Positions 4,336 to 62,422 of a stretch of 64,000 nucleotides of DNA are shown piece after piece. Numbering within the stretch: the first letter of the stretch is position 1; each line of letters starts with the position of its first letter. Source of the stretch: Cinnamomum chago (Eukaryota > Streptophyta > Magnoliopsida > Laurales > Lauraceae). The DNA is taken from assembly GCA_038049695.1 (NCBI GenBank), contig CP142453.1:1071501-1135500 (forward strand), given 5' to 3'. Below the pieces are notes generated by a model. That model saw only the letters and a list, made by a program, of their open reading frames with translations. It was not told the DNA's origin and did no database searches. Both the position numbers and the translations under genes were made by a program.

Positions 4336-4540
4336 CACTACACCAAAAATCGGAAATTGGAACGGAAAAGCGTTCCTAATCCTTCCGTTCCTAATCCGTT
4401 AAAGTGTTCCAATTTCCGTTCCAATTTGGATTAGGAACGGTTGGTACCAAATTGGAACGGAAATTGGAACACTTTAACGGATTAGGAACGGAAGGATTAG
4501 GAACGCTTTTCCGTTCCAATTTCCGATTTTTGGTGTAGTG
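4336..4540. mobile_element. CACTA-like palindromic MITE, copy 1
   Basis: A 205-bp near-perfect palindrome bounded by CACTACACCAAAAATCG and its inverse, with a 3-bp target duplication CTC (4333-4335 and 4541-4543). CACTA ends with 3-bp duplication are CACTA/CMC hallmarks. Almost the whole element folds back on itself around a short centre containing GGTACC. It lies inside the gag region of the Copia element, so it is younger than that insertion. Confidence 0.85.
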
Positions 4541-7500
4541 CTCCCAAGAGGCTCCTCTAGAAGAAACTTCAATCTCAGTTGCTGTTCCCAAAGCAAATGT
4601 TGTGACCCATTCTGCTGGGAACAATTGTGGATGAGGGCGTTCATCTTCTGGCAACAATCGTGGTCGCGGCCGTGGTCGCAATGCCTATGACTACAACAGA
4701 AATTCTGGCTGTCACAACTCCAGTCGACCCACTTGCCCAGTGTGCAATAAACCCGGTCACTATGCTACATATTGTTATCACCGATATGACCCTGACTATC
4801 AAGGAGAAAGACTTACACCTGCTGCAATGATGGCTGGTTCATCTGTTGGTCACGATGGTGCCTGGTATTCGGATTCTGGTGCGACCCATCATCTCACAGC
4901 TAATATGGCCAATCTCTCCACTCACTCTAAGTACCATGGTCCAGACCAAGTCCATGTTGGAAATGGTAATGCCCTTCCTATTACACATGTTGGCTCTTCT
5001 ATTCTCTGCACTCCTTCAAGTTCTTTTTGTTTGACCAATTTACTGCGAGTCCCCAATATTACTAAAAACTTGCTATCTGTTCACCAATTTACCAAAGATA
5101 ATAATGTCATTTTTGAATTCCATCCTTTTTGTTACTATGTCAAGGAATGACTGAGCAGCCGCACTCTTCTTTGCGGGAAAATAAAAGATGGATTATATGT
5201 ACTTGATCTCTTGGATTCAGCTCATCCAACTGCATTAGTCGGTGAACGTACTTCTGCTGATGTCTGGCATGCTCGTCTTGGCCATCATTCTCCTCTGATT
5301 CTTGCCAAGATTCGTCCACAAAATAATCTACCATTTTCTTCTCCCATTCTTTCTTTTTGTGATGCTTGTCATTGAAATAAAAGCAAACGGTTGCCATTTA
5401 ATTCTTCTTTCTCTAAATGCAGTCATCCTCTTTCTTTTTGTGATGCTTGTCATTGAAATAAAAGCAAACGGTTGCCATTTAATTCTTCTTTCTCTAAATG
5501 CAGTCATCCTCTTGAGGTGTTACACTCTGACCTTTGGGGACCTTGTCCAATTAATGCTAATGGAGGTTACTGTTAAAATCTACATTTTACTGACCAATTT
5601 AGTCGTTTCATGTGGATGTTTCCATTACATAGGAAATCTGATGCACTTTCTGTTTTTATGGCTTTTAAACTCAAAATTGAGAAATTACTTGGATTACCCA
5701 TTCCACAAATTCCACTCTGATGGTGGCGGTGAGTACAAAAAGTTCACCCCCTTTCTTGCCTCTCATGGCATTACTCACAGGTTTTCTTGTCCTCACACTC
5801 CTGCTCAAAATGGTCTTGCTGAACACAAGCACCGCCACTTGGTTGAATCAGGTCTCACACTCTTAGCCCGTGCCTCTGTGCCTTTGTCTGACTGGGTGGA
5901 TGCTTTTGCTACTGGTGCTACCTAATTAACCACATGCCAACACCTGTTTTATCCAATTTTTCGCCTTATGAAAGACTTTTTGGTAAGCCACCAGATTATT
6001 CTTTTCTTCGTGTCTTTGGCTGTGCGTGCTATCCAAACCTAAGGCCATATAATTCAAACAAAATATAACCAGACTCAGTTCGTTGTGTTTTTCTTGGCTA
6101 CTCGGATATTCACAAAGGCTACAAATGCCTTCATAAGGTCACATGCCGACTATATATTTCCAGGGATGTGGTCTTCAATGAAGTTAATTACCGATTTTCT
6201 ATACCTCCCATTCCTTCTCCATCTTCATCATGTCCAACTTTTATTTCTCCTTTTAATCATACTAATGAGGGGGCCGATGACTCCGCTATACTTTTATGTA
6301 GGCTCATTGTTTCCTTACAGAATCTAGTAGCTTCTTTGGATGGGGCTGCTTCTAGTTCCCCTTCCGACAATCAATTGTCTCTCACCAGTGAGCATTGTGC
6401 CTTGGACCCATCTATGCCCACTCATCAAACTAACCCACTATTGTCTACTTGCCCTGACTCTGCTACAATTATACCCACCCATCCAATGGTCACTCGCACT
6501 CGTGATAATACCAGAAGACCCAAAACTTATCCGGATTTTGTCACTCGGCACCCCCGTCCACATGGATTGGTAGCTCACTGCCACTTAGATACTTTTGAGC
6601 CTACTTGTTTCACTCAAGCTAATAAGCATCCCAAATGGTGAGCTGCTATGGAAGATGAGTTCAATGCGCTTATTCATAATGGGACATGGCATCTGGTTCC
6701 ATCTCATCCGCGCATGAATTTGATTGGCTGCAAATGGGTTTTTCGCCTTAAAGAGAAAGGCTGATTGTTCGATTGAATGCTATAAGGCTCGCTTGGTGGC
6801 AAAAGGTTTTCATCAGCAACCAGGGATAAACCATCATGAGACCTTTAGCCTTGTGGTCAAGCCCACCACCATTCATCTCGTTTTGTGCCTGTCTTTAACA
6901 TTTAAATAGCCCCTTCGTTAGTTAGATGTACAAAATGCATTTTTACATGGTTTTCTAAAGGAGGAAGCGTATATGGTTCAACCACCAGGCTTCAATGACA
7001 ATCATTTTCCCCACCATGTTTGTAAGTTGCGGAAAGCCTTGTATGGTCTCAAACAGGTCCCCCATGCTTGGTACCATCGTCTAAGCTCATTTCTTCTCTC
7101 CATTGGCTTCTTCAATTCTCGATCTGATACTTCTCTATTCTACAAAAGGACAGAGAGCTCCATTATACTTATTTTAATTTATGTTGATGACATTATTGTC
7201 ACCGGAAACAATGCTCCTCACATTTCTCTACTGCTCCATTCGTAGGGTGCTGAGTTTTCCACTAAAGACCTAGGCTCTCTTCATTTTTTCCTTGGTATTG
7301 AAATTATACCACATGCAACTAGACTCTTGCTGTCTCAATGTAAATATATTCATGATTTGCTAGTTAAGACAAAAATGGATGGTGCAAAGCCTGTCAGCAC
7401 ACCGATGACATCCAACTGCAGTCGCTTCTCTGACCCTGTCTTCTCTGATCCCTATCTTTATCGCAGGACGGTGGGTGCACTCTAATATCTCACTATTACC

Positions 7501-8135
7501 AGACTTGACATTGCTTATGCTGTCAACAAGGTCTCTCAATTTATGCAGTCCCCAACTAATGACCATTGGGCTGCCGTGAAACGCATCTTGCGTTATCTAA
7601 AGCATACTATTGTCTATGGTCTATTTCTTCTACCCACTTGGCAACTACAACTGCATAGTTACACTGATGCTGATTGGGCTGGTTGCCTAGATGATCGCAA
7701 ATCTACTAGTGAGTATGGCATTTTTCTAGGGCCAAATCTTCTCAATTGAAGCTCAAAGAAGCAGGCTCCTGTGGCATGGTCCAGTACAGAAGCTGAATAT
7801 CGTGGTGTAGCTCTTGGTTCTTGCAAGTTACTTTGGGTTCAATCTCTTCTTCGTGAGCTTGGTTTTATGTTGCATGTCCCAGCTATCGTTTGGTGTGACA
7901 ACATTGGCGTAATTTATCTTTCAGCCAATCCTGTCTTACATGGGAGAACCAAACATGCGGAGGTAGATGTCCACTTTGTAAGAGATCTTGTTAAAAAGGG
8001 TCGGATTACAGTTCAGTACTTGTCTACTATGGATCAGATTGCAGACATCTTTACAAAACCTCTCAACTCTGCTCGCTTTTCTACACTACGCAACAAGCTC
8101 ACTGTTCATCCTGATCAGTCTCGCTTGAGGGGGCT

Positions 8136-8535
8136 TGTTAAGGAGAACCTGTTCACAATCTTCTCTACAAAATAACTATTGGTTATTATCTATTCTTATC
8201 TCTTCAGCAAGTTGTATCCCATCCTCATCTCTTATAACAACTCATTCCTTATTTATATATATATATATATAGGCAATATTCAAGTGAGAGATTCCCTCAC
8301 CATGTGTGGTGAGGGACTCTCCTTTTTTTGGGAGGTTTCAAGTACAAAATGGCTTTTGTACTTGAAGGGAGTACACCCTTTTGTACTCGAAACCTCTCTA
8401 AAAAGAGAGTCCCTCATCACACATGGTGAGGGAATCCCTCATTTGAATACCCCCTATATATATATATATATTTCAATACTGTCCCATAGTTGAATGCTGT
8501 GTGAGAAGGATATTTAATGAAATTTCTATATTTCA
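8136..8535 (+). repeat. 3' LTR of the Copia element, interrupted by a MITE
   Basis: It starts TGTTAAGGAGAA directly after the polypurine tract and ends ATTTCA. Its extra length over the 5' LTR is due to a TA tract and a MITE at 8272-8454. The flanking direct repeat at 8539-8622 follows immediately. Confidence 0.85.
8272..8454. mobile_element. MITE inserted in a (TA)n tract within the Copia 3' LTR
   Basis: Inverted ends: the left reads ATTCAAGTGAGAGATTCCC and the right, reverse-complemented, ATTCAAATGAGGGATTCCC. It is bounded by TA repeats on both sides. An inner inverted pair (AAGTACAAAATGG... and the GTACTC side) makes a longer stem. A close relative lies at 59918-60081, also between TA repeats. 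The Micron type of MITE is known to occupy (TA)n tracts; membership is inferred. Confidence 0.75.
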
Positions 8536-8663: not shown

Positions 8664-8868
8664 CACTACACCAAAAATCGAAAATTGGAACGGAAAAGCG
8701 TTCCTAATCCTCCCGTTCCTAATTCGTTAAACCGTTCCAATTTCCGTTCCAATTTGGTACCAACCGTTCCTAATCCAAATTGGAACGGAAATTGGAACGG
8801 TTTAACGGATTAGGAACGGGAGGATTAGGAACGCTTTTCCGTTCCAATTTCCGATTTTTGGTGTAGTG
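8664..8868. mobile_element. CACTA-like palindromic MITE, copy 2
   Basis: Same family and same 205-bp length as 4336-4540, with its own 3-bp duplication CCT (8661-8663 and 8869-8871). The asymmetric centre is inverted relative to copy 1: GGATTAGGAACGGTTGG in copy 1 appears here as its reverse complement. The two copies therefore inserted independently in opposite orientation. Confidence 0.85.
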
Positions 8869-9649
8869 CCTACCTACAAATATGAATTTTAGTATTACAG
8901 AGGAAGAAAAAGACCAGTCCCTAAAATAGTGGTGTGGTTGAGCAAACAAACATCAAATTAAGACTCAAAATATTAACTTTTACAGCCCAGTGAGGAGCAT
9001 TCAACCCCACATGTATTAATCAATCTGTAAAACTAAAATGCCATGTGAAATTCTTCACATGGCTTTGGGTATGATTTGATGGTAATTGTTTGCAGATATA
9101 AGTCATAGTGCTTTCGCGCAAGTAACACACACTTTAACGAGCACTTGATTTTAGAGTTCACATCCTCGTAGCCTCTTATTAATGGACACCACTGGGACGA
9201 AGGAAATATTTAGTGAGGGCCACCTATTGAAACCTAAACTGCCCAAAATGAATATCCTTTCTCTTGCATGTCTTCTAACTAAAATTTTACTCCAACGTGA
9301 ATTTTACCGAAGTTTCACCATATCTAAATCCTCTGAGGCTCTAGTTGAGAGAATTGAACTGGAGTAAAACTCCTCAATGGAGCCCACCTATTGAAAATTA
9401 AAGCCGTTTAAATAAACATGTCAGATCATTCATGGGATGTCCCTAAGTCTTAATCTAGTAGACCCACCATAAGATTAATCATGTGATAAATAATGTAATT
9501 AATAAATATGATACATAATGTAGAAGATTTTTTTAATTGTGTTATTCATGTCAATATTATGCATCGGTCAAATCTTATTAGAAAGAGGAAGAAAGATGGG
9601 CTGAGGAATAAGAGAGATTATGATTTATTATGTGAAGGGGAGTTTTGCT
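8869..9649. other. Intergenic stretch, no gene seen
   Basis: AT-rich non-coding sequence. CCACCTATTGAAA recurs about 170 bp apart (near 9219 and 9386); nothing else supports a call. Confidence 0.5.
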
Positions 9650-17944: not shown

Positions 17945-19891
17945 TCAAAGCCCATTATTGATGTTCTTCAGATCTCCCTTAAGAAGAGACATAAGGATCC
18001 CTCCATGCACCCTCCCCTCAGGGAGCGCAAAGCTAAAATTCTTTCTCCCGCTGCCACCTCCACTCCCCTCTTCCTCTCTTTCATCAACCATCAACCTTGA
18101 AGTGGATGAGGATTTCATAGACAGAGGCACCAGTACTTGAGGGGGTATAAGCTGCCTTGTGTGGGTGTTCACTGATGACTCAACACAATTGGAAACAGCA
18201 CTCGCTCCTCCATAAAAATTGTTATCAGAGCTGCTCCCCACGGTCGATTCAGACACAAGTCCGCGAAAGAGGCTGGTGTCAATCATGCCACCCCTCCTCC
18301 CTGCATTCTGTCCTAGGAATATGTTGCCATGGGCTGTACATAACCCACTCCTTCCCCTCGCAAACTTATCACATTTACCCTGGCCCCATGCACACCGTTT
18401 CCCCCCACCATGAGCTTTGCAGAAGTCTGTGCTTCCCTGGGCGCTCTTCTCACAATTCTCATACTGGCACCGCTTGCCTCCACCATGCCTCACACAGCAG
18501 TCTGTACGTCCCCTGGCACTCTTCGTGCAGCCTGGCACAGCACAACGCTTCCCCCCTCCATGAGCAACGCAGTAGTCAGTCCCACCATGCACACTCTTGG
18601 GGCAGATGCCACCACCATCATAGAGGCAACGCTTTCCCCCACCATGCCCCTTGCAGAGTGGCGTGCTCCCTTCGGCACCCTTTGTACACCCTGCAAACAC
18701 ACACCGCCTGCCTCCTCCATGTGCCTTGCAGTGCATAGTGCTTCCCTGGGCTCCCTTGGTGCAACCTGGGTTCTGGCATCGGCGGCCCCCACCATGTGAG
18801 ATGCATAGCCTTGACTGCCCCTCAGCACTACGACTGCATCCTTCTACTTTACACCTCTTCCCTCCGCCATGTCTAATGCAGAGTCCGGACTTCCCACGTG
18901 CAGCCTTTGTACACTCCCGGTGACCACACCGCCTGCCACCGCCGTGTGCAATGCAGAAATCAGTCTTACCCTCAGCGCTCCTGGTGCAGCCTAAGTGCTG
19001 GCACCTCCTCCCTCCACCATGTGCCTTGCAGAAAGCTGTACGGCTCTCAGCACCCTTGGTGCATCCTGTTTTCTGGCACCTTTGCCCACCTCCATGAGCA
19101 ATACAGAGACCTGAAGCCCCTCTCGCTCCCTTTGAACACCCATCAAACCTGCACCTCTTAGGATGGTGACTCCAACCTTCGGAAGATGCTCCCGATGTGA
19201 TAGGGCCAGATATCGCCCCCACCGAGCTATCAGTAGGGGCTGAAGGCTCAGGACTGAACTCAAGATGATAGGCACCAGCACCAGTACCATGTCCTAAAAG
19301 TTCCCGAGTTTCTGGAACATTCCTATTCTCCAAACTTGGAGCCAAGAGAAGAGCAGGCATATACCCACCCGAATTCCTCTTAGCAGAAGTGGATCCTTCA
19401 TCAACAATTGGAATGTGCCCATTGACTAGCCACTGGTTTTGGAGAGACATTGGGTCATATTCACACTGTAGTGACGCAGAACTTTCTTGCAGGCCTGGAA
19501 CTTCAGCAGACCCTCTAGAAAGCCCAAGTTTTAGCATTTCAGAATCACTATCAGAAGGCAACCATTGGCTAAGCACAGGGACAGAACCATTATTTTTAAC
19601 AGTCCCAACTGGGTAATAATCATCAGCATAACAACTCGGAGATGGACCTAACCCAAGAACCAACCTGCAACCATCATCTGAGGCTTGGGAAGAATGAGCA
19701 AGATTACTCTCGTAATTGCCGGATTCTGGAGTCTTGAACCTCTTGATTGCCCCATAGCCAACATAGTCCAGAGTCAATGTTGTATCAGCCATGTTCTCGA
19801 GTTTTCTGTAATCAGAGATGTGTTTGTCTGCATATGGACTGATGAGTTGCACCTTTCTGGCAGACGAGGAATCTGTCGCGTTGAGATCCAT
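17945..19891 (-). CDS. WRKY19-type Cys/His-rich repeat protein (zinc-binding repeat array, no WRKY domain)
   Basis: An uninterrupted 648-residue frame starting MDLNATD. Residues 246-522 hold eleven tandem units of about 24-28 residues of the form RC-x4-C-T/S-K-x-A-x-G-x-T-x2-C-x2-HGGG, each with three Cys and one His able to bind zinc. The same array occurs at the N-terminal side of Arabidopsis WRKY19 and in its stand-alone relatives. The N-terminal part has DTTLTLDYVGYGA and two LxLxL, EAR-like motifs (LVLGL at 77-81, LKLGL at 120-124), hinting at transcriptional repression. The C-terminus ends with the family-typical PEGRVHGG and a short helix. It is probably nuclear; the DNA or protein target is unknown. 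Units 8 and 11 carry small insertions between the first two cysteines. Confidence 0.85.
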   Translation of the reverse strand: MDLNATDSSSARKVQLISPYADKHISDYRKLENMADTTLTLDYVGYGAIKRFKTPESGNYESNLAHSSQASDDGCRLVLGLGPSPSCYADDYYPVGTVKNNGSVPVLSQWLPSDSDSEMLKLGLSRGSAEVPGLQESSASLQCEYDPMSLQNQWLVNGHIPIVDEGSTSAKRNSGGYMPALLLAPSLENRNVPETRELLGHGTGAGAYHLEFSPEPSAPTDSSVGAISGPITSGASSEGWSHHPKRCRFDGCSKGARGASGLCIAHGGGQRCQKTGCTKGAESRTAFCKAHGGGRRCQHLGCTRSAEGKTDFCIAHGGGRRCGHRECTKAARGKSGLCIRHGGGKRCKVEGCSRSAEGQSRLCISHGGGRRCQNPGCTKGAQGSTMHCKAHGGGRRCVFAGCTKGAEGSTPLCKGHGGGKRCLYDGGGICPKSVHGGTDYCVAHGGGKRCAVPGCTKSARGRTDCCVRHGGGKRCQYENCEKSAQGSTDFCKAHGGGKRCAWGQGKCDKFARGRSGLCTAHGNIFLGQNAGRRGGMIDTSLFRGLVSESTVGSSSDNNFYGGASAVSNCVESSVNTHTRQLIPPQVLVPLSMKSSSTSRLMVDEREEEGSGGGSGRKNFSFALPEGRVHGGILMSLLKGDLKNINNGL

Positions 19892-20284
19892 TCTCGGTCT
19901 TCGTAAAAAGAAAAATGCAGATAAAGAACTTGATGCAGAAAAGGTTAGAGAGGACTCAACCCCAAGAATGCAACTGCTTGGACAGAGAGACCTGCTGCTA
20001 CTGCTATGGATGCATGCAGTAGATCAAAGAAAAATTAACAAGCAGTATTAACATGAGACCTCCACCGCTTACAAAACCTGATGTGTCTGACCTGTCCATG
20101 ATGTTAACTTGGTTATCAGGGACTTCCAATCAAAGTGCTACAGAGTTTCATGTTGTGGAGTCGCTTGCATAAGGCTTATGATTGAAGTGGTACAGATTTC
20201 CAAGCGTATTTGATTACGTTTCTAGGATAAAAGCCTTTGAGAAGAACAGTGAATATCAGCAAGCTGAGAAGATTCACAGAGAGC

Positions 20285-21240
20285 CTCTTGCTCCTAGCTA
20301 AAGAACCCTCAAGCATCATTAATCCTACCAGAGAAAAAAACCAATCCCATAGAATAACTTGAAAACAATTTAATCATAGAACAGAACAATTTAGATGTAA
20401 CAATTTGCATAATTCAAAGAAATGGGTCAAAGATAAGTTGTACCGAAAGTTACTTTATGTGAAACGCCTGTTAATTGAACCAGTACCCATCAAAGTCAAA
20501 ATAGTGGTCGATTCAATTTCAACCAGAAAACAGTTTGAAACCATCATGACTCGTACCCTCCAAAAATAATTTCAGAAATGTCATTGCTGTTTGCTTTACA
20601 TGATACATACATGAAATGCATTGAGAACGGGTCTTTTTTGTATCATGTACATGTATGTCTGGGATAACTAAATGCGATAAACAAATCATGGTTACATTCA
20701 TTGTATCAAGGAACAGGTAGGAAATTGTGGTAAGCAGGTAACACTTATGAAGTGATAGTCATGTATTACTGTAGCTAAGGAAATAACATTTATGCATTGC
20801 ATCCATGACATATCTGAACTGATTTATGGAAAGCCCTTTTCTTTTCTCTCAGCTAAAGAACCCTCAAGCATCATTAATCCTACCAAAGATTAACACAAAC
20901 CCATAGAACGAATTGAGTACAATTACTTGTCAAGCAAAACAGTTTAGACGCAACAATTTAAATGATTAAACATACAGGCTTATCAAATGTTATTTCCGTA
21001 TGCTTCTTCAAAAAAAAAAAATGTTATTTCTGTATAATGCCTCTTTATTGTTGAAGTATCCAGAAAAGTCTAAAAACAGTTGGAACTTCAATTACACCCA
21101 GAAACGATTGAGAAATGGTCATGATCCATTCCCCTCAAAAAAGATTTGGAATTGTCCTTTCTGTACATTATAATCTTTCCCTGTGGACGTCCTCTTTGTG
21201 AGGCTCACATGAATACATGAAGAAAATGAGGTGGCGAGGG
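20285..21240. repeat. Diverged direct duplication inside the leader intron
   Basis: AGCTAAAGAACCCTCAAGCA with following ATTAATCCTACC occurs at about 20297 and again at about 20851. Weaker similarity continues for a few hundred bases in the same order (CCCATAGAA, CAATTTA, CCAGAAA). Two copies of roughly 400 bp are offset by about 555 bp. Confidence 0.6.
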
Positions 21241-21384
21241 GTGAAAAGGTTTCATGATGTATTAGAGTTGGGACAAGGCTATGATGATGATGATTCATAC
21301 TTAAGGAATTGAGGAATTTATCATTGAAGATTGCAATATGTAGCAAAATCAAAATATTCAATTATCCGTCTATGAAAAAGTAGT

Positions 21385-21595
21385 GGTGTACCCACCTGGG
21401 AGTTGGTGGAGTGGCATAAAGGCATGTGTTTACTCCCCACATTTTGTGTTCAAAACCCATGCCAAATTTGCCCAGTGTGCATTTGTATGGGTTTAGCAAG
21501 TGCCACCTAGGGAAATTAGTCCTATTGGATCAAAGACCTTAGGGATACCCACATCATAGAAGAAGAAGAAGAAGAAGAAGAAAAGAAAAGAAAAA
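21385..21595 (+). mobile_element. tRNA-derived SINE with GAA-rich tail
   Basis: A-box-like GTTGGTGGAGTGGCATAAAGG and B-box-like TGTTCAAAACCC lie about 40 bases apart near the left end. The right end is a (GAA)n run at about 21560-21583 followed by an A-rich tail. Clean target duplications were not resolved. Confidence 0.5.
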
Positions 21596-22121
21596 CTAAT
21601 GGTGGATTACTCCTCTATAGATGATCTCTATCTTTGCTGCCCATCTGTCCATTCACCTAACTGGCAATTTAACTACAAAAAAGATAGAGAAAAAAAAAAA
21701 AAAAAAGAGGAAATTGTTTCTAGTGGATTTCTTTGCGTTGGAACAGAAGAAGAAACGGTGTATTACATTCCCATGGACATGCATCATAAATACATCTACA
21801 ATTAGACTGCCCAAATTATGTTTTTTTTCTTTTTCCAAGTTGTACGAGTTTTGGCTTGTACCTAAACATCTAGGGCACATTTGGAAAGGAAATGGTTTAA
21901 GGGGAGATATGGGGCAACTTAGGGTTGGACAAATTATTATCAACCACCCAATTCTCCCTTCTTTGCTTGCATTCTTTCTCATCATGCAGAGGATGGAGAA
22001 CAGTTTTGTAAGGAAAATACATCATCCAATTTCTAAATGGTGGGATGCTCCAAATGGTCTAGCTCTTTTTACTGTGCAAAGTTGTCAACTGATTTGAGGG
22101 AAATACTCATCCTAGAACCCT

Positions 22122-22205
22122 TTTTATTTATTTTTTTATTTTTGATTGGTAACATGACTTGAACCCACAACCTCAAGGTTGCAATAGTGACCCACAACCT
22201 TGAGG
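22122..22205 (-). mobile_element. SINE fragment (minus orientation)
   Basis: Read on the minus strand it has a B-box-like GTGGGTTCAAGTC, then CATGTTACCAATC and an A-rich tail. The same order (GGGTTTGAGTCATG, CCAAT, poly-A) occurs at 28888-28952 on the plus strand, so both probably belong to one family. Confidence 0.42.
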
Positions 22206-22869
22206 TATCCATTTTCCTTTTTATTTTTTTCTCAAGAAAAAAACCCAATAAGAATAGACATAGTCACAGATTTATATTCCTTCATCAAGTTTTAAGAATT
22301 AAACTGATAGAGCTAGATCTAATTTCCATGTTCTGGTTGAGTTTCTTTCGTCCAAGCAAATGAAAGTTGGATTTAGAATACAGATTCCTAATGAATTCAT
22401 GAACTTTACAAGTTATAAATAGAGTTTTCTCAGTTTCTAAGAGTACCATGTTCTACCCATGCTGCCTAGTTGAGTCAACTCATCGAGGTTTCCTCAATTG
22501 AGCTTGTAATCATCATCCATGAAACCCCCACAAGCACCATATATCCCTCCAAGAACCATCTCCTAACAAATTCAAGCCACAGAGACTCATCAATTCAAAC
22601 CTAAAGGGATACAGAATCATAAAAAAGTAAACAAAAATCACCAAAATAAAATCATCCATGTCACTTTTAATTACTACTAAATCCAATTAAATCTCAAACA
22701 AACCCTTAAAGATATAAAACCCCACAAAACAGTACTCCCAAATATAACATCAAGATCTTAAAAGTAGAAAAGGCCTAGCAACTGAAAGCCCTACATCACT
22801 ATTGAATCCACAAAGAAACTTCCAACAATCAAAAGTTAGCATCAAATTTGAAGGGGAAAAAAATACTAC

Positions 22870-22965
22870 CTGAGGGATTGTGATGTGATTTAGAAACAGC
22901 CCATCATCAAAGATTTTATCAGGTTCCCAGAGAAATCAAACATCTTTCCAATGCAAAATGGAGAG
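22870..22965 (-). other. Candidate noncoding first exon with a 17-codon upstream ORF
   Basis: It begins about 30 bases below the TATA box in a (CT)n tract and ends at CAG/GTAGTA. It contains an upstream ORF of 17 codons plus stop (22943-22890, starting ATGTTTGAT). Its orientation points to the start codon at 19891. Transcription is inferred from signals only. Confidence 0.5.
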
Positions 22966-22989
22966 AGAGAGAGAGAGAGAGTGCTGGAG

Positions 22990-22999
22990 AATTTATAAA
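22990..22999 (-). promoter_or_regulatory. TATA box of the Cys/His-repeat gene (left arm)
   Basis: TTTATAAATT on the minus strand, followed about 25 bases later by the (CT)n leader. A CACGTG G-box lies at 23064-23069, about 65 bp upstream, a usual distance for a plant bZIP/bHLH site. Confidence 0.6.
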
Positions 23000-23184
23000 C
23001 AGAAATGCAAAAGATACTCGCGCGAAGGGGGTATGAAAAAGGAGGCCAACTTGGTCACACTCACACGTGCCAGGTTGAAGCCATAGAGGAGTGGGCCACA
23101 CCCAATCAGTGATGCCCCACACGGCCCCACATGTGTAATGTGCCCACAAGAGTCCAAGTCTCATAGCACCAATCAGGTGGCACC

Positions 23185-24377
23185 TAACACACTTGGGAAG
23201 ATGACCACACAAGCGCACCCTGCTATTGGTGTGCTACACCTAGCGGCTAAGCCCATGGGTGCCACCGGCTCACCGCACACAAAAGGAGAGTGGCTGGGGG
23301 ATTTTTAGGGGCAAAACCTATTTAACCTAAATATTAAGATTAGTTTTTTTTTTTTTTCCTTCTTTCGTCCACCGGCGAGGATGTCCGGCTTTGCGAGAGC
23401 CGACTAGTTCTTCTAACACCTGAAGCCCCATGGTAACTTAGCCAATTAAGCCTTTTATTATAAGTGGCTCCAAACAGATTTGATGGAGGACGTGGCCTAA
23501 ATAGATTTGATTGGCGTCGTCAAATCCATATAGCCGACCCCACCTAGTGGGAAAATGCTTGATTTGATTTGGTTTGATTTAACTCCAAAAAGAGCACAAG
23601 TTCAAAATTTCAACCTTCAATTTTGGAGCCTTGGTCCTGGCCAACTCGGGACATCGATTTAGTTCTTTTTTTTCACCGACTCACATTACATTATGGTCTC
23701 TCATGAATCAGGGCAGTACCAACGTCTGTAGATTCTAGTACTACGTTAGAGCAAACTAACTATGTTAATATATTTCTTACCTTCTCGAACCATTATCTCT
23801 TGGAAGACGTCCGATAAAATTGGAGTTATACCTTCTTGAACTATTGTACATATGAAAATGAGGTCTATCCTTCACGAAAGATTCTCACCTGCCAGCAGGC
23901 TGCATGCTTGGCCAGCTTGTGGACTGCATTTGGACGATGAATTCCTTTCTTTGGACGTAGGATTGATAGGAGGATCTCTTCATAGTCCTTGATTTGATAA
24001 TTTAAAAGTTTAGCAGCCTTTTAACCATAAACTTTTTTTAGACTCAATTCAACGGCAAAAAAGGTTGATGATGAGGATAAAATCGGGCATGATTGCAAAT
24101 CACAAGGGATAGAGTTCCACTGATCATAAGGTGGGCCCAATAGAGCTCGACTGCACATGCACATGGAGTACTAACTTATGATTCATAAATGTGACAGATG
24201 ATAATATATGTCTGTGAGGAAGGTTAAACGTCACATGCACATATAACGAATTATAGAGCGTGTAGTCACAATATAAATATATGTCTTTGGCGAATATCCC
24301 TACCAGTACAAGTGAAAAAAGGTTATCAACCTGTCTTCACTCGTTTATAAATATAAATGCAAAAAGTCTTCTTGGAT
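23185..24377. other. Spacer between the inverted arms
   Basis: 1193 bp without a gene. It contains a probable LINE tail at about 23475-23580 and otherwise unrecognised sequence. Transcripts from the two arm promoters would diverge away from this spacer. Confidence 0.6.
23475..23580 (+). mobile_element. Fragment of an RTE-type LINE 3' end (or derived SINE)
   Basis: TAGCCGACCCCACCTAGTGG followed by GAAAATGCTTGATTTGATTTGG matches the familiar 3' end of plant RTE LINEs (C-terminus ...ADPT, stop, then short T/G-rich repeats), also carried by some plant SINEs. Only about 100 bp survive. Confidence 0.5.
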
Positions 24378-24976
24378 GGTGCCACCTGATTGGTGCTATG
24401 AGACTTGGACTCTTGTGGGCACATTACACATGTGGGGCCGTGTGGGGCATCACTGATTGGGTGTGGCCCACTCCTCTATGGCTTCAACCTGGCACGTGTG
24501 AGTGTGACCAAGTTGGCCTCCTTTTTCATACCCCCTTCGCGCGAGTATCTTTTGCATTTCTGTTTATAAATTCTCCAGCACTCTCTCTCTCTCTCTCTCT
24601 CCATTTTGCATTGGAAAGATGTTTGATTTCTCTGGGAACCTGATAAAATCTTTGATGATGGGCTGTTTCTAAATCACATCACAATCCCTCAGGTAGTTTT
24701 TTTTTCCCCTTCAAATTTGATGCTAACTTTTGATTGTTGGAAGTTTCTTTGTGGATTCAATAGTGATGTAGGGCTTTCAGTTGCTAGGCCTTTTCTACTT
24801 TTAAGATCTTGATGTTATATTTGGGAGTACTGTTTTGTGGGGTTTTATATCTTTAAGGGTTTGTTTGAGATTTAATTGGATTTAGTAGTAATTAAAAGTG
24901 ACATGGATGATTTTATTTTGGTGATTTTTGTTTACTTTTTTATGATTCTGTATCCCTTTAGGTTTGAATTGATGAG
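24378..24976 (+). repeat. Inverted repeat, right arm: duplicated promoter and first exon
   Basis: Inverted copy of 22586-23184. It holds the same G-box (24493-24498), TATA (24563-24572), CT leader, upstream ORF (24619-24672) and donor (CAG/GTAGT at 24692/24693), now pointing right. I noticed one clear mismatch, in the A/T run beside the donor. No coding exon for it to splice to is visible in the next 1.4 kb before the convergent ABCF5 3' end. Confidence 0.88.
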
Positions 24977-26113
24977 GTTTAAATGGTATGAGATGATAAT
25001 AATTAAAAAAATTGTAATGGTGGCTCTAAGCTGGCATAGAGCTTAGTGGAAGCAAGAAAAGGCCTTTGTTTGCCACGCCAGGCAAGCGTGGTTACCAACT
25101 TTTGTTTTTTAGCAAAATCTTTGGCGCCTATTTGTTGCTTTAGCTAAATATGTTCATATGTATTTTTTCCCAATGGAATTCAAGTAACAGTTACTAATTG
25201 CCATTTTTCATCATGCCTACTTCTAATTATCCTTGTTGTTTTGCGTGTATATATTGCATAAATATTCAAATGTGAATTGTCCACACAGTTGACATGGGTT
25301 CAAGTTATCTTTGTCCTTTACACTACCTCACAAGTCCAAATTTGATACTCATCCAACTTTTACAGTTAAATTATCCATTAAAATGATTACAATAACCGAA
25401 CACCTGAGCGCAAAAAGAAAATCATAAACTAATCAATTTCCATTACCTATAACATAGAAAGTCATAATACAATTTTCCTCCCTTTCACATAGTAACAGTT
25501 TCTTGGCCTATGAGTGAGTAGCTATTATTATATTAGTGGTGTTTGTATTATAAGCATTTTCTTGATAGGTACTAGAACATTTAATTAACTAAAAAGGGTC
25601 ACTTGGAAAAGTATGGAAACCACACACTTGGGGTGCCTTTTCAAGAATCTGAGGAGCTTTTAAGTCCAATGTTTGTGGCTATAGTTTTTCCTTCATTACC
25701 AAAACCATATGATTACAATATTCCCAATCTTCTCTTTGGTTCCTCTTCCTTTTGTCTTTTGCCAATATAATATGCCCCGGAGAAAACTAAGCTGAATGAT
25801 TGTATCTGTTACGGTGGAAAGAGACAGTTCTTGTCCATTTTAGTTATTTTGTTGGATTGTGTAGCGTCCAAGGCGGGGCTCCACACTCCAAATCAATTGA
25901 AGGGCCTATAGCTATTCTCCCATGGTTGCTTCCATAGTGAATGAGACCTTTCCTCTCTTTATTTCACACCTCTGTGAACATGCTACTTTCTACATCCAAT
26001 TGAACATGCTACTTTTCTCAGAATCTGAATTGCCAAGTTTTTTTTTATAGGCCACCAATCTGATACAAACCCAAACCCCCTCCTTTTTTTCTTTTTTTTT
26101 CTTTTTTATCTAG
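24977..26113. other. Intergenic region, no gene seen
   Basis: AT-rich, with T-rich tracts near 26041-26107. No protein-like frame was seen. A transcript from the right-arm promoter would cross this stretch. Confidence 0.5.
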
Positions 26114-26307
26114 ACTTGAAATTGGCGCACATAAAACAAATTAACAATAGCGCATGACAGGTAAGACACTCCTGATTTCATATCAAATCTTGCTACAAAA
26201 TGCTGAATGGACTTGAAATTGGCGCACATATAACAAATTAACAATAGCACATGACAGGTAAGACACTCCTGATTTCATATCAAATCTTGCTACAAAATGC
26301 TGAATGG
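26114..26307. repeat. 97-bp perfect-length tandem duplication
   Basis: Copy 1 is 26114-26210 and copy 2 is 26211-26307, each starting ACTTGAAATTGGCGCACAT and ending TGCTGAATGG, with only about two mismatches. It lies 115-308 bp past the ABCF5 stop codon, so it may be in that gene's 3' UTR or polyadenylation region. Confidence 0.9.
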
Positions 26308-26421
26308 TAAATCTAAAAGATTTGACTCAGAATATGTATGTACATTATAAGAGGACCTGCCTGATGCTTGGCTTCTAAGTTATTAATTACAATAATGTTT
26401 TTTGGTCAGTCATCAAAAAGA

Positions 26422-29400
26422 TCAGTTCCATCGTTTGGCATTTTTCAGTCCTTTTGATTTCGCTTTTGCATGTTGGAATGCCATCATTTTCTGTTTCTTC
26501 CTTGCTTCTTTCTCTGCCTGTGTAATTTTAGAAATGCAGCAGGCAATTAAACGGCCACCCACTAAGATCAACTTAGATAAGACTACACTACTCAAAAAGA
26601 ACAAAAGCTGAGATTGCATACCTTTGACATCTTTGATTTGGCCTTCACTTTTGGGGCCTTCGCCTCTAGATCTGCATCACGTTGGAGTTCTCTTTCTCGA
26701 GCAGCAAGGTTTTTCTCTAGATAATACTGTAGATGAAAAATACATCTAATTAAATGATCCAAAACCCTGGATATAATCAGTAAACCATATATAGATTGGC
26801 ATAATTCAAACAAAGCCCTTGTCAAATCTTAATTGCATAGGAAAAAAGAACACTGCCAAAAACCATTACATGATCATGAGAACAATAAACAGATAGCCAT
26901 GCCCATCAGTTTCCAATATTTTCTTCCTAATGTTTTCAGATATGCACAAATTTAAACACTGGTGCCGGGTTGTACAATAAGTCCATGCAAATAATAAATC
27001 CATTCTTTCTGTTTTCCCTTTGAGTTTATCAGAAATGAGGAATTTAACAAATTGGGCCACGGTAAAGACATACTCCATTTTGACTTGAAAACAACAGTCT
27101 CGGCTCCCTAAGCAAAAGGGCAATCCATGTTTGATCAGTGTGTGTGTGTTCCTGTAAGGACTGTCCTTATGCTCTTATGCTGAGGACCACCAAGTGGGGC
27201 CCACCTTGGAACCCCATATATCATGGGAAAAGGGGAAAATGGGGTGGATCAAAGGACCCACGTGGGGCCAACCTAGGTATCAAATTTGAAATCAATCGAA
27301 TACCTCTAATCCCTTCATCCGTGGTCCACAAGTTTAACAACTTTATATAAAACCACAAAAATTGACCCTCAATCCAACGGTCTATTCCATTCGGATCGAT
27401 GCAAATCCATGGGATCGGTGACTATAGGGGGTTGTGTATGTGTGGTGCATTTGGATGGGTCATAAGGTGGGGCCCCACTCAGTGGTCCTCACTGTAAAAT
27501 GGCAAGGACCATCCTAACACGACCAATACTCAATCAAATCAATAAAGTGACGGCTACCAGCAAAGCCTCATTTATGCATTTTGAGATGCTTTTATATGTT
27601 ACCCGGTTTTTTTTTTTGTTGTTGTTGTTGTTGTAAGAAAGGAAGAAATCTAACTTCTTTTATAGTGCACTTACATTGTAATCTCCTCCATAGTCTTGAA
27701 GTTTTCTGTGATCAATAAAGTGACGGCTACCAGCAAAGCCTCATTTACGCATTTTGAGATGCTTTTACATGTTACCCTTTCTTTCTTTCTTTTTTTTTTT
27801 TTATTGAAAGAAATGAACAAATCTAACTTCTTTTATAGTGCACTTACATTGTAATCTCCTCCATAGTCTTGAAGTTTTCTGTTCTTCACCTCCACCACTC
27901 TATTAACTATCTGCTTTACGAAGTATCGATCGTGAGAAACAGTAATGACTGTACCCTGGTACTCCATTATTGCCTCCTTCAAATATCAAAGATGACAAAA
28001 GGATATGAAACTTCAATAATTGTGATTTCCTTGATGCTTTAAGCACAGAAATAAACAGAACTGCATTGCAATGTAAATGAACATGAAACTGTACCTCAAG
28101 CATCTCTTTTGATGGAATGTCCAAGTGGTTAGTTGGTTCATCCAAAACTAGCAGAGTTGATGGTTTGACCATGAACTTGCAGAAAGCAAGTCGTGCCTAC
28201 ACCAACAACAGGACAATAATTGCAATAATCACCATACTGCTATCATCATAACTGTAGCCTTATTCTTATCTAAGGTTGGCTAAAATAAAGAACACATAAT
28301 TAACTAAGGAAGTGACAAAAACTAAACGAACACAAAATGTATGAGGGATCAATCATTAGCCCCGCTGGTTCCAGGGTTTAGGCTTTCTATGTAAGCTTCT
28401 TTTACAAATTACAAGCGAATACCAAATTTAGGGCTCTATTGAGACTGCTTGGGTTAATTGCTGGTCTCATGAAACTATGGAGTATACTAAGACTAACTGA
28501 TAATAATAATAAAAAATCAAATGGTACTGATAAAGGGAATATTCCCAATGCAAGAAAACCTGCAACTTTCAGTAACTAGGAAAGGAAGCAATTGGAAATA
28601 AGAATATTTTTTCTTTAACGATAGTAAGAGAACATGTCCGAGACTTATTCCATATACCTTCTCACCACCACTTAAAAGTGAGACATTTCTGTCAAGCATG
28701 TCTGCTTTAAAATTACAGCGACCAAGGAGTCCCTTAATATCATCAATTCTCCAGTCCTCTGCAGCTTCTTCTACTGTCTGAATCACAGTTTTCTCCAGAT
28801 CAAGTGCCTCTGCCTGATAGAGAGACACAGTTATCTCAATAGAATCACAAGACTCTCAGAGGTAATTCTAATAATAAAATGCTACAATTGGAAGGTGCTC
28901 ATTGTCACAACCAAGAAGATACGGGTTTGAGTCATGTTTCCAATAAAAAAAATTAATGCAAATAAAAAGCTATAGAACAATTAATTCAGCAATGGCTTCC
29001 CAACTGAAGGTTGGAAGTGAAAAATCAAGATGATTGATGACTTTGCCAAAGTTAGGCGATAGCGTGCAGATTGGATTAATGTTTAGATGAACAATGTAAT
29101 CAATCTTTTTTTTTTTTTTAATTTTCTGGATTGAAAAGACAACCGATGCTTTTTTTTCTTTTTTTTTCTTTGTCGAAGTCATGTGTTCTAGACATATGTA
29201 CAGTTAAAAATTCCTCATGACAGATGAATGTATACTAATGTGTTGCTGTGGTGAATGCAATGCTCCACAAAAACTAGGAATAGGATAAATTCAGATATTT
29301 TTACAGTTAAAAGAAAGAGTGGGGACCTCTGAAAAAGTGAGAGAAGGTATGAACAGATATAAAGCATGGATAGGCAAGGACGTGCCATAAACCTGGCAGT

Positions 29401-32400
29401 GACACGGATTTTACACATAAAAATGAAATATTAGATATGAAATGATGCAGAAACATTGTCCATCCAGAAGAATCTAGGTATCATGTCTAAGAAAAATATT
29501 TAACAAAAAAATGGGTTTGAATATTTCACAAAAATTTGAGAACGTCGTCAATTGGTTTGGGGATTTTGGAAAATATCTTTCTTCATAATTTTTACATTTA
29601 AAAAAGTGGCCAAAAGTCTGCAACAGTAGATTCCATCTAGACAAATGCTTTACAACTTGACATTACCATTCGGACAAATAGAGCACAACAAGACATTAGA
29701 ACCCAGATATGTATATATCCAGTTTATGACATACACCTAAGCATCAGTAACATTAAAATATCCAGTTTAACAGTAAAACAAAGTAAACTAATGCTAAAAC
29801 ATACCTGGTTTTGCTCAAAATAATTTGGCAGAACATTATGCTCCCCAATCAAAACTTCACCTCCTCTAGGCTTCTCGGAACCCATAATCAATTTAAGCAA
29901 AGTACTCTTCCCACATCCATTTGGACCAATAAGAGCAATTTTCTCCCCTTTCTCAATCATAAGATTCGCCTTATCGAACAGCACCTGGAATGAAAACGCA
30001 CACAATGATTACAAAAATGTAAAAAATATTAAATGTCTGATGCAGACCTTTTCTTCTGTACCATCGAGCAGATTCTACACACCTTATCACCATATCCAAA
30101 TTCTAGATTCTTAATCATCACTACAGATCTTCCACTTCTGCCTCGCTCGGGAAATCTAAACTTTATTTGTTTCCGTTGAAAAGGCTTTTCAACTTGGTCC
30201 TCAACTTGAAGTTTTTCCAGCTTCTGTAAATAACAAAGGCATCCCCAGAGACAAACAGTTAGTTCAAAGCAATTAAAAACTGCTAACTCTTCATATTTGA
30301 CATTCTCTCTACAGGGGAAATTAAATATCCTGCATTCTACTAGCATTCAAGGAGATATATTCTGGAAGCCCAAAAAATTTAGAGCTGCTTTCTTAATTGC
30401 CATGTCAGTAGTCCAGGGCATATTTGTTTCTTCTCAAGGAAATAATATACATATACTTCTTTCATAAAACTTAAGGAAATCATGTTCTATGAGTTCCACG
30501 GGCATGGAAAACATAAAGGAGTCAATTTCTGTTCAATTCAGTTACGCTGAAAACCTAATACAGAATCTCGGTACAAAACTCAAACATATCCAGCCTTGTT
30601 TGGCTGAGTAAATCGAGGCTAAAATCTGTCAGACTTCTCGTATGCACAGTGATAAGAGTGCATATATATACAGCGCTGATCACTTGCACACCTTGATTTT
30701 GAGTGCCCTGCATGCCACATGCTAGGGGCCCACAGGGGACCCCACCTAGGTTTCTTTTTTTTTTTTTTTGTGTGTGTGTGTGTGCGTGTTTTTTTTTTTT
30801 AATAAAATTTCAAGCCCATCGGAACACCCTAAAACCAATTTTTAGTGGTTGGAATGGGTAAAAAATAAAAATAAAAAAAACTCTGAGAAGCCCCATTAAC
30901 TTCAACTACCAATGAAAAATAATACAAATAAATAAAAAATACATTGGTCTCCTTGAATGTCGATTTCACTCAGGCCAAACTCTATTATTAAAAAAAAAAA
31001 AAAAAACATTGTTAGATGTTCCATTTTGGCTTCTTGTTTCAGTCAAAATGAATGAAAATGACAATTTATGTCAGCGCACCTCTGGAATAATAATAGAAGA
31101 TATTTTTAGAATCCTATTATTTCTAACTTGCTTGACCAATACTCCAACTAATAAATTTGATCCATGAATTTAGCCATTACATGTGATATAGAGATAAATA
31201 AGCTTAATGGAAGTGACACATAATTGGTGGCCATTGCCCACGAACTTTTCTACTTAAAGTAATTCTAGCACAATGATGTAATTCAAGAGATGAACAAAGG
31301 GAGACACAAGGAGTCAATATCTAGTTACAAAGGTTCTTTCATGAGCATGATAAACAAGAAGCAGAAACAGCTCAAGCGTCAATGTTCACCGGAAATCTTT
31401 TCCATTAGAGTGACTGACAAGCGAATCAAATCTGAAGTACCTTTTCTGCACTGGATGCACGACCTGCATTAGCTCCAGCACCCAACCTATTTATTATGTC
31501 TTTTGTCTGCTCAATTTGCTTCTGTTGCTTCTCCCATGCTGCATATTGAGATTCAATCCATGCTGCTTTTGCTAAAACATACTCAGAATAATTCCCTTCA
31601 AATGTCCTGGATACTCCCATATCAGTTTCCACGATTTTTGTACACAGCTGATCAAGGAAGGCTCTGTCATGAGATATTATGACCATCGGCACATCTTGCT
31701 TCTTAAGGTAACCTTCAAGCCACTCAATGGTATCAAGATCAAGATGGTTTGTGGGTTCATCCAGAAGTAGCAAATCAGGTTCCTGCAAATGAATGAATAT
31801 CTTAGTGCTCACCCCCGGACCAAAGGCAATAACAATGATTAAAGGCCAATCATAGATTCATATGGGACAAGAAAAATGGAATTAAGGGCCAATCCAAAGT
31901 ACTTCTTGTCATTGGCAATATCAATCACGAGGTTTGAGTCTATAATGTGCTACAATTAGATCCATGGCATTTAAAGTTCAAAACTATGAATTGAGATCCA
32001 CAGCTTCAAGATCTAAAAAAATAAATAAATCAAACAATAACATATTCTTAACCTAGGAGCATTGCACTTAGTTACTAAGCTCTGGTTTGGTCTCTTCTTT
32101 TTTTTTTTTAAATGGTTTGGTCAAAAAAATTAAAAAATTAAATAAACATTTTATAAAACTTAAGATCCTCTCTCTCTCTCTCTCTGAATCTTTTTTCTTC
32201 ATCTCTTAAAAGGTAAGGTTTCTTAGGGACTTTGTTTGATTTCATTTCCTGTTCTTTGCATCACAGTGCTTCGTTTGGGCTAATTCAGATCTGGGATACA
32301 CCAAATCCAATTGAACCCAACCTAGACCCGGCCTTATTCCTGTTTACAAATGCAATTGTTGGATCTGGGTGCTCCTGGAGTCCAAGACCGAACCCGCACC

Positions 32401-34370
32401 TCAATTGTCTCAGTCACACTCTGGCCATTTGTGCCCGAGAAGAATACAGAGGAGGGGATTAGATCTCAACTTGCCTAGGGGACCCACCTTATATGTGCAA
32501 AAACATGCTAACACAAAACTCAAGCACCTAAACAGGAGAACTCATAATGCCTGTGTCCTAATCCCCAAAATATGCTGGTAAGTCTGGTCCGTTCATTAGA
32601 TGGTCTACAATTGAACGAAAGCAATGGACAGGTAAAATTAGCACCCAACATCAGTACATCATTATTGTTGTTGAAGCATTGTTCCATCAATAATAGTATA
32701 AATTCCTGTGGCCCACCTGATGAGCAGATTTACCCTAATGGAACATATAGAAGGTGGGACCCATATTTTGAATGGCTTGGGTCCTGTACATATGCTTCTC
32801 TGGAGAGTAAACATGCACAAGTGTGTCACTGTACCATACTCAAGTACCAAGTCTAAAATTGTGTACACACATTCCTCTTAAGATTAAGGTACACGAAAAG
32901 GAAGTGAACTAAAAAGATGTTATACACTTTCCTTTGTTTAACAAATCAGTGACTTCTAAAGGACACAACCATGGATAACCAATACTCCTAAGTTGCACTC
33001 GGGCACCATAAAATTTTTTATCGGAAATGAGCATCACCTTTCACTATCTCAGTCTCATGCAAATAAAAAGAAAAAGAGGAGAGCTTTGACCGGATGGTAC
33101 CGACAATTTAGAGGCCTGGACCAATTGCAGGGTTCATAATTTACATAGCACAAATCAACTGAGGCATGAGCCCAGTATAATGTAAAAGAACTAGTTTAGA
33201 CTACTATATCAAAACCCGGATAAAAAAATCAAGCATTACAAACGAGGAACATCAATTCAGAGATGAAGAACAAATTTGTAAATACATCTTTAGTCCAAAA
33301 AAGTCTGCCACAATTCGAAATAACCATGTCATATAATTCCAACTGACTAACTTAAATGAAGAGATGGAAGCAGTCAACTGGAAATTACTGCTAAACAAAG
33401 CTTTTTCCAATCAACAATTCAGTATTACAACAATCTGTACAGCATTATAATTTTTTTTTTAAAATAAAGTTTTTGAGGGGAAGAGAATCACCTGAAGCAG
33501 AATCTTGCCCAAAGAAATTCTCATCTGCCACCCACTACTGTAGGATGCCACTAACCGCTCAGAATCCTCTGGACCAAATCCAAGTTCTGGCATCATCTTA
33601 CTTATCTTCACATCCACCACATCAAGATCAACAGCCTGTGCCTTCCTCTGCAGCAAGTCCAACTCATCCAAAAGCCTCCCCATCAGCCCCAAATCATCCA
33701 CCGCGCTCTCCAGCGCCTTCTGCACCCTCTCCAACCTCGCTGCAATCTCCATTTCCTCTTTAAACGCGCTCACAAACTCTTCCTTCACCGTCCTGCTGGG
33801 GCACACCTCAAATTCCTGGCTCAAAAAGGCAATCTTCATATTCGCTTTGGCCTTAATTACATTCCCCGAATCAGGCTCATCCTCCCCTGCAATAATCCGC
33901 ATTTGGGTCGTCTTCCCCGCGCCATTAACACCCACCAACCCCACTTTCTGCCCTTTCTTTACTTCCCAGCTCACATCCTTCAAAACAGTAACCCCTTTAA
34001 AGCTCTTGCTGATGTTTTCTAACCTAACGCCTGAGGAAACGCCCGACGCGCCGCTGTTCGACGGCTTATTACTCTTCTTTTGATGAGCATCGGTATCGGA
34101 AAACAGGGATTCTAAGTCATCTACGCCTGCAGATTTCTCCGCTACGGAGGTTTCCGCGGAAACCGCCGAAATTCTTGGGAAAGTTCTAGGGTTTTTCCAC
34201 TTACGATTCAAAAAACTGAACTTTTTGTTGAAACTGATACCGATTCTGATGGATTGAGTTGGAGAAGTGGAAATCGATCGGAGACTTGTTCTCGGAGCGT
34301 GTAAAGCCGCCGAACCAGTGAAGAAGGCGGATCGAAGATCAATGGATTGGATTTTGCTTGAGACGTCCAT
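26422..34370 (-). CDS. ABCF5: ABC-F ATPase ABCF5 (GCN5-like), complete, nine exons
   Basis: Exons in gene order: 34370-33492, 31782-31441, 30223-30083, 29984-29805, 28813-28658, 28196-28095, 27976-27848, 26726-26622, 26517-26422. All introns are GT-AG and phase 0, giving 709 residues (Arabidopsis ABCF5 is about 690). I chose the Met at 34370, three codons inside the longest frame, because [14 protein letters not shown] aligns with the family start. An N-terminal region of about 75 residues rich in Ser/Arg could be a plastid transit peptide. NBD1: Walker A GVNGAGKT (147-154), Walker B LLLLDE (297-302). NBD2: Walker A GPNGCGKS (474-481), signature LSGGE (561-565), Walker B LLVLDE (581-586). The C-terminus is Lys-rich, ending NAKRWN. 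There are no membrane segments; ABC-F proteins act on ribosomes or translation. The NBD1 signature reads SSGW instead of SGGW (278-281). Some introns hold MITE and SINE insertions. Confidence 0.95.
27154..27518. mobile_element. Candidate MITE in the last-but-one ABCF5 intron
   Basis: Ends form an imperfect inverted pair: GTAAGGACTGTCCTTATG on the left, and GTTAGGATGGTCCTTGCC as the reverse complement of the right. The interior is rich in GTGGGGCCCAC-type strings, unlike the flanking AT-rich intron. No target duplication was resolved. Confidence 0.45.
27538..27882. repeat. 172-bp tandem duplication copying the end of ABCF5 exon 7 into the next intron
   Basis: Copy A is 27538-27709 and copy B is 27711-27882, both running from ATCAATAAAGTGACGGC to GAAGTTTTCTGT. 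Copy B contains the real 3' end of exon 7 and its GTAAGT donor. Copy A carries a second version of the last 31 exon bases (27675-27705) with the same donor, preceded on the minus strand by GATCACAG, a possible acceptor. Internal T-rich and (GTT)n tracts differ between the copies. Confidence 0.88.
28888..28952 (+). mobile_element. SINE fragment in an ABCF5 intron
   Basis: B-box-like GGGTTTGAGTCATG is followed by TTTCCAAT and an A-rich tail, matching the order seen in the minus-strand fragment at 22122-22205. A fragment only. Confidence 0.4.
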
Positions 34371-34566
34371 CTGCAGCATCTGGGAGAAGAGGATTTCGAA
34401 AAATGAATGTAGAGGGAATGGATGAAGTTAGGGTTTTGAATTGGGCATCAGTGTTGGGATTTTGGGAAGGGTAATCTCTGGAAACTCAAATGAATTGAGT
34501 TGAGACTTGAGAGAGTGTGTTTCAGAGAGAAACCCTCGGTCCTATGAAAATGGCGGAAATGAGAGG

Positions 34567-61958: not shown

Positions 61959-61966
61959 TATAAATA
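61959..61966 (+). promoter_or_regulatory. TATA box of the beta-xylosidase gene
   Basis: TATAAATA stands 62 bp upstream of the start codon. A purine-rich leader (AGTAGAGAGAACAGAG) lies between, giving a short leader of about 30 bases. Confidence 0.65.
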
Positions 61967-62020
61967 AATAGACAAACCACACCCACGCCCAAAGTAGAGA
62001 GAACAGAGCCTCTACAAGTC

Positions 62021-62422
62021 ATGGGGTGCTCTGTTTTCACTCCATTTATAGTCCTGCTCATTTGCTTGGGTTGCAGAGGGGTCTTTTGCCAATCTCCTGT
62101 GTTTGCCTGTGACGTGGTGAAAAATCCGGACGTGGGGGGCTTTGGGTTTTGCAATACATCATTGGAGACTGGAGCTAGAGTGGAGGATTTGGTGAAGAGG
62201 CTGACATTGCAGGAGAAAATTGGGTTCGTGGTGAATAAGGCAGGAGCTGTTGGGAGGCTTGGGATTCCAAGCTATGAGTGGTGGTCTGAGGCATTGCATG
62301 GAGTTTCATATGTGGGGCCTGGGACTCATTTCTCTAGTGTAGTTCCTGGTGCTACGAGCTTTCCTCAAGTTATTTTGACTGCAGCTTCTTTCAATGCGTC
62401 TCTGTTTGAAGCAATTGGCAAG
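62021..62422 (+). CDS. GH3 beta-D-xylosidase (BXL3/BXL4-like), first exon only
   Basis: Exon 1 encodes 134 residues and ends at AAG/GTGAGC; the gene continues past the window. Residues 1-23 are a signal peptide (hydrophobic core [10 protein letters not shown]). FACD (28-31), the LTLQEKIGF helix (61-69), [21 protein letters not shown] (79-99) and [17 protein letters not shown] (109-125) are signatures of the plant GH3 beta-xylosidase/alpha-arabinofuranosidase family. FACDVVKNP and [14 protein letters not shown] favour the BXL3/BXL4 side. The enzyme is secreted to the wall and trims xylan or arabinan side chains. The catalytic Asp and the GH3 C-terminal domain are outside the window. Confidence 0.9.

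Follow-up and report, generated by a model that had tools for sequence, protein, structure and literature searches.

How did the start of a plant gene come to be present twice, in opposite directions, and what could the second copy do? The question is raised by a stretch of 64,000 nucleotides from Cinnamomum chago (the window; C3:1071501-1135500 of an assembly of 1.06 Gb in 14 contigs), in which an inverted repeat of two 599-nt arms lies upstream of a minus-strand gene of the Zf_WRKY19 type (Cys/His repeat). The explanation to which we give slightly better than even chances is a recent local inverted duplication without a transposon, with the left arm as the original and the right arm as an orphan copy.

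Identity and edges of the inverted repeat

The two arms lie 1193 nt apart and were the sole inverted pair reported by the repeat finder between 21000 and 27000. Base-by-base comparison, which needed no gaps, showed identity at 598 of 599 positions (the 100% given by the repeat finder is a rounded value). The single mismatch (22864 versus 24698) falls on position +6 of a predicted splice donor, and the exact runs inside the pair are 320 and 278 nt long; the next longest exact inverted pair in the whole window, very-low-complexity runs left out, measures 94 nt. Chance as the source of the pair is excluded, and the inverted repeat is confirmed as real in the assembly. Over 18500-28499, the assembly letters were identical to those of the window and free of N (this is the window's own assembly, not a set of independent reads). 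The two-arm inverted duplication of the preliminary description was recovered with exact coordinates, and the identity of 598/599 agrees with its proposal of a recent origin or homogenisation of the arms.

No similarity above that of shuffled sequence (50 shuffles each) was detected beyond the outer ends (1000 bp per side; score 27 versus a shuffle maximum of 31) or beyond the inner ends (about 597 bp per side; 18 versus 29). An older, longer repeat with decayed edges was rejected, since nothing outside the arms rose above the shuffles. The spacer had no match better than E 0.005 within the window, itself excepted, and its CpG observed/expected ratio was 0.68, where the median of the window is 0.40 and 24 of 315 windows have a ratio at least as high. 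A resemblance of 24344-24364 to 22992-23012 (21 bp, E 0.03-0.06) was judged to be due to chance, and no Rfam family reached threshold in 20000-28000.

A difference at 1 of 599 sites is also what an older inverted repeat held identical by gene conversion would display, perhaps with flipping of the spacer through recombination between the arms; nearby inverted repeats are able to convert one another. An old converted repeat would be expected to keep diverged edges, whereas the ends here are sharp and flanked by nothing similar, and we regard this origin as very unlikely.

Read along the gene, each arm carries, in the same order and at mirrored positions, CACGTG (a G-box), the TATA-box-like TTTATAAA, a (CT)10.5 run, a 17-codon upstream open reading frame (ORF) and a donor-like CAG/GTAG site (Table 1), as the preliminary description had noticed for both arms. 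These elements may act as promoter, leader and splice donor. The sixth intron base is A in the left arm and T in the right arm; because the plant donor consensus prefers T at this base, the right-arm donor is if anything the closer to consensus. Further, the outermost 100 bp of the arms are T-rich along the gene direction, and plant introns are T-rich.

Age and proposed origin of the second copy

The divergence between the arms, 1/599, amounts to 0.0017 (95% interval 0.00004-0.0093). At substitution rates between 6.5e-9 and 1.5e-9 per site and year, the age is about 0.13-0.56 million years, with an upper bound of 3.1 million years at the slowest rate, an estimate that presumes no gene conversion. 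The equal length of the CT run in both arms was counted for recent copying as well.

In the proposed course of events, a 599-bp piece of the Zf_WRKY19-type gene, comprising its apparent promoter, the non-coding exon 1 and the start of intron 1, would have been copied, probably via template switching during replication or by repair of a break from a template, and placed in reverse about 1.2 kb upstream of its source. Such mechanisms fit because they would account for an inserted inverted copy beside an unchanged spacer. The left arm would keep serving this gene; the right arm would be an orphan promoter that probably yields no more than a short non-coding RNA running rightward. We infer from the DNA which arm is original and how it was copied, as well as promoter activity and the production of small interfering RNAs (siRNAs). 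GGTGCCACC or its complement, found at 23176, 23258 and 24378, was considered as junction microhomology and set aside; the first and last of these are the arm ends, and no mechanism was built on the middle one. In a report on human inverted copy-number variants, replication-based mechanisms are named in a one-model proposal, and palindromes are argued to be unstable, with the spacer lengthened by secondary rearrangement (PMC10766186).

Which arm is the original

The main rival to a local inverted duplication is a small inversion via staggered breaks or chromatid exchange, in which the arm would be a filled-in overhang or an exchanged overlap and the spacer would be inverted relative to the ancestor. 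Staggered breaks yield inverted duplications around an inverted segment (PMC7584159), and replication-based repair could leave the same footprints instead (PMC7584159, section 25). The present locus shares with those inversions a segment flanked by an inverted duplication, here with 599-bp arms around 1193 bp. The inversion predicts that 24377/24378 is the ancestral contact and 23184/23185 the new junction.

Base composition was compared across the four junctions and about 1,200 window positions at seven sizes from 50 to 300 bp. At 23184/23185, the distance at 100 bp was 0.02, with none of 1204 sampled positions smoother, and the two sides were nearly alike up to 150 bp. At 24377/24378, the distance at 100 bp was 0.48, a value reached by 5.7% of positions, and at 75-300 bp only 3.5-8.6% of positions were equally different. 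The GC difference was 0.01 at the left inner junction versus 0.24 at the right inner junction; among 650 pairs of adjacent windows, 0.9% reach the value of the right one. Moreover, the supposed empty-site junction was smoother than the junction of the inversion model at all four sizes compared, with a small margin at 200 and 300 bp. The outer junctions were undecisive (over all sizes, 8.7-54.1% of positions were at least as stepped as the left one, and 7.7-23.5% as the right one).

The left arm was judged native because composition is smooth from the left arm into the spacer and stepped at the right arm. This weakly suggests that the left arm and the spacer have long been neighbours and that the right arm was inserted. 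The enclosed segment is inverted in the published cases (PMC7584159), whereas composition here leans, weakly, against inversion of the spacer; we consider an inversion rather unlikely.

Several points weigh against the left arm as original or against a recent duplication. At 200-300 bp, 23184/23185 was average (25-37% of positions), and at 50 bp, 24377/24378 was unremarkable (reached by 26.4%). If the left arm is native, its outer junction should be smooth, and yet it was about as stepped as the right outer junction (8.7-10.6% versus 7.7-20.7% at 150-250 bp). The composition test is weak and indirect, as ordinary sequence features can produce such steps. The arrangement is known from a single assembly; gene conversion could give an old duplication a young look; and no junction microhomology was established in a search that was not systematic.

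Near-perfect arms in a single assembly could also stem from faulty assembly, for instance from a chimeric or haplotype join. Among five contigs compared in this regard (C3, C1, C2, C5 and C6), four are sized at exact multiples of 12,500 (134337500, 130050000, 110475000 and 92087500; not C6, 84375921), which suggests scaffold edits at bin borders. A read with a missed adapter yields a palindrome with little or no spacer. The arms at this locus are sharp, 1193 bp apart and bordered by unrelated flanks, they differ by one substitution, and the sequence contains no N, all of which speak against an artefact; we hold it to be distinctly unlikely.

The last alternative is that a DNA transposon of the MULE or foldback type took up a promoter and that the arms are its long terminal inverted repeats, a view with which a spacer flanked by inverted arms is consistent. 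A search of the assembly with the arm as query, passing over simple repeats and very common words, returned three candidates, all of them scored: the two arms and a 44-bp stretch around a GA run on C1. No third full copy of the arm was found in the 1.06 Gb. Target-site duplications at the exact boundaries were absent for the whole element, for either arm and for the spacer; when boundaries were shifted by up to 6 bases, the whole element gave none of at least 4 bp, the right arm 5 bp at most and the left arm 4 bp. In addition, the arms contain what appears to be the gene's own promoter. A transposon origin was rejected on the lack of a whole-element target-site duplication and of a third full copy, and is extremely improbable.

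Predicted transcription, hairpin formation and silencing

Both promoter-like ends are predicted to face outward, away from the spacer. RNA from the left arm would run into the Zf_WRKY19-type gene and RNA from the right arm toward the neighbouring ABC gene, and neither would cross the spacer. The preliminary description had proposed that read-through from either arm across the spacer produces a hairpin; this part did not hold, because the putative starts are divergent and neither transcript would contain both arms. With predicted transcription directed outward from both arms, a hairpin RNA would need a transcript from outside. Read-through of the leftward ABC gene is an example of an outside RNA that would cross both arms. 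In the predicted fold of minus-strand RNA from 22586-24976, mirror-image pairing joins 598 of the 599 positions of the arms.

On the rightward path, hexamers resembling poly(A) signals (ATTAAA or AATAAT, none of them AATAAA) occur at 24891, 24998, 25002, 25377 and 26391, and those that ABC read-through would have to pass lie at 25958, 25692, 25580 and 25524; such hexamers occur often where DNA is AT-rich, and they are counted here without a chance expectation. Because of the hexamers on the rightward path, antisense RNA from the right arm may stop short of the ABC gene.

Double-stranded RNA could form only if a transcript from outside ran over both arms; low-level siRNAs could then follow, along with methylation of the DNA at the gene's own promoter. 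Some siRNA from the arms is plausible, with chances about even, because most gene-near inverted repeats of Arabidopsis give 24-nt siRNAs. Regulation of the Zf_WRKY19-type gene by arm siRNAs is less likely than the siRNAs themselves. A further scheme would couple the two neighbours through a switch acting in cis: siRNAs from an ABC read-through hairpin would methylate the Zf_WRKY19-type promoter, and the right arm, responding to the same transcription factors, would fire antisense toward the ABC gene. We regard this arrangement as a long shot.

Comparison with known inverted repeats

Some plant siRNA loci and epialleles are known to start out as inverted duplications. Two long, near-identical inverted copies of gene sequence are found at this locus (599 bp, 598/599). 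At the DNA level it is a further and apparently very young member of the gene-derived inverted repeats of the PAI, VIM and aquaporin kind. The repeat lies within 3 kb of a gene; its left arm contains the apparent gene start, and the ABC stop is 1.45 kb from the right arm.

A study by Arce et al. from 2023 is reportedly the source for the gene-proximal inverted repeats of Arabidopsis. As summarised in a review, about 486 of 634 inverted repeats within 3 kb of genes in Col-0 give 24-nt siRNAs, and about 68% of these gene-proximal repeats probably stem from transposable elements (PMC12595863). They share with the present repeat a gene within 3 kb and are probably for the most part transposon-derived, whereas this repeat bears no transposon mark (PMC12595863).

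Nearest in shape is the aquaporin inverted repeat on soybean Gm14, which has almost the same geometry (621 bp, about 1,000 nt apart), is gene-related and has small RNAs observed (PMC3534067). That repeat is similar to exons 2-4 of a gene located on a different chromosome, for which silencing was proposed (PMC3534067), whereas here the promoter and exon 1 lie beside the parent gene. A literature search for earlier plant inverted duplications of a promoter with its first exon yielded this soybean paper and a review of miniature inverted-repeat elements (PMC10004981). Nearest in layout is VIM4-VIM2 of Arabidopsis Cvi, a head-to-head pair whose first exons and first introns are identical and for which read-through transcripts and siRNAs are reported (PMC13213937). 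Both VIM4-VIM2 and PAI4-PAI1 are near-identical inverted copies, as here; PAI4-PAI1 is arranged tail-to-tail, unlike here, and VIM4-VIM2 is a repeat of whole genes, about 6.4 kb in size, around a nonpalindromic middle of 50 bp, as against 599 bp of a gene start and a 1193-bp spacer (PMC13213937). Divergent genes are compatible with read-through, because VIM4-VIM2 exhibits it, with a middle of only 50 bp (PMC13213937).

So far as these sources describe them, the compared cases are mostly transposon-derived or duplicates of coding sequence (PMC13213937, PMC3534067, PMC12595863). A copy with a 1/599 difference that is confined to promoter, leader and donor would allow the first step to be observed: silencing of the new promoter repeat, no response to it, or its use as a divergent promoter.

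Neighbouring genes and other features of the window

The coding exon of the left gene matched Zf_WRKY19 (PF24906) with E 4.5e-75 and begins at 19891, 3 kb from the left arm; the match agrees with the earlier placing of this arm upstream of a minus-strand Cys/His-repeat gene. A transcription start and splicing that link the left arm to this gene are presumed from the sequence. On the other side, no ORF of at least 100 amino acids (stop to stop) was listed on either strand of 24977-26422. The right arm therefore faces 1.45 kb without such an ORF and, beyond it, the 3' end of the ABC gene, as had been described. The last exon of this gene and its stop (26422-26424) are our reading of the translation, without a family match; the name ABCF5 is the label of the preliminary description, and the family matches here are ABC_tran and ABC_tran_Xtn only, located in two of the exons.

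Table 1. Coordinates, within the window, of the inverted repeat, its promoter-like elements and the adjacent genes.
Feature	Position	Strand	Remark
Left arm	22586..23184	-	promoter-like region, exon 1 and beginning of intron 1 in Zf_WRKY19-type gene; judged native
Right arm	24378..24976	+	judged inverted copy; promoter-like elements point right
Spacer	23185..24377	.	1193 bp
G-box CACGTG, left arm	23064..23069	.	
G-box CACGTG, right arm	24493..24498	.	
TATA-box-like TTTATAAA, left arm	22992..22999	-	
TATA-box-like TTTATAAA, right arm	24563..24570	+	
(CT)10.5 run, left arm	22961..22981	-	length equal to right-arm run
(CT)10.5 run, right arm	24581..24601	+	
Upstream ORF MFDFSGNLIKSLMMGCF, left arm	22890..22943	-	17 codons
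Upstream ORF, right arm	24619..24672	+	17 codons
Predicted splice donor CAG/GTAGTA, left arm	22864..22872	-	last exon base 22870
Predicted splice donor CAG/GTAGTT, right arm	24690..24698	+	last exon base 24692
Coding exon, Zf_WRKY19-type (Cys/His repeat) gene	17945..19891	-	648 aa, 9 domain stretches
ABC gene	26422..34427	-	ABC_tran 33462-34427; ABC_tran_Xtn 31429-31857

A 35-bp exact direct repeat (20296-20330 and 20851-20885) was present in what appears to be the 5' region of the Zf_WRKY19-type gene; it overlaps an acceptor-like site near 20324 and is perhaps a duplicated leader exon. In the apparent first intron of the same gene, a highly repeated element of about 200 bp (21390-21595), similar in appearance to a short interspersed element (SINE), was found at 39 other places with 79-85% likeness among the best 40 of 1805 candidates. 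Two tandem duplications were detected in the region of the ABC 3' end, at 26113-26307 (period 97 bp, 97% matches) and 27538-27882 (period 173 bp, 91% matches).

Elsewhere in the window, a near-perfect 205-bp hairpin was identified at 4336-4540, with the ends CACTACACC...GGTGTAGTG and CTC at both flanks, which we take to be a CACTA-type miniature inverted-repeat transposable element (MITE). It sits within a copia-like polyprotein region, and related pieces occur at 8682-8869. A copia-like retrotransposon is represented by pieces over 4635-8175 (Pol_BBD and RVT_2 domains), with an 85-bp direct duplication at 5348-5513. In addition, an exon-like ORF at 61964-62470 was akin to beta-xylosidase (NCBIfam NF041776, E 6.2e-21, 74 bits, with the full-length cut-off far above at 1250).
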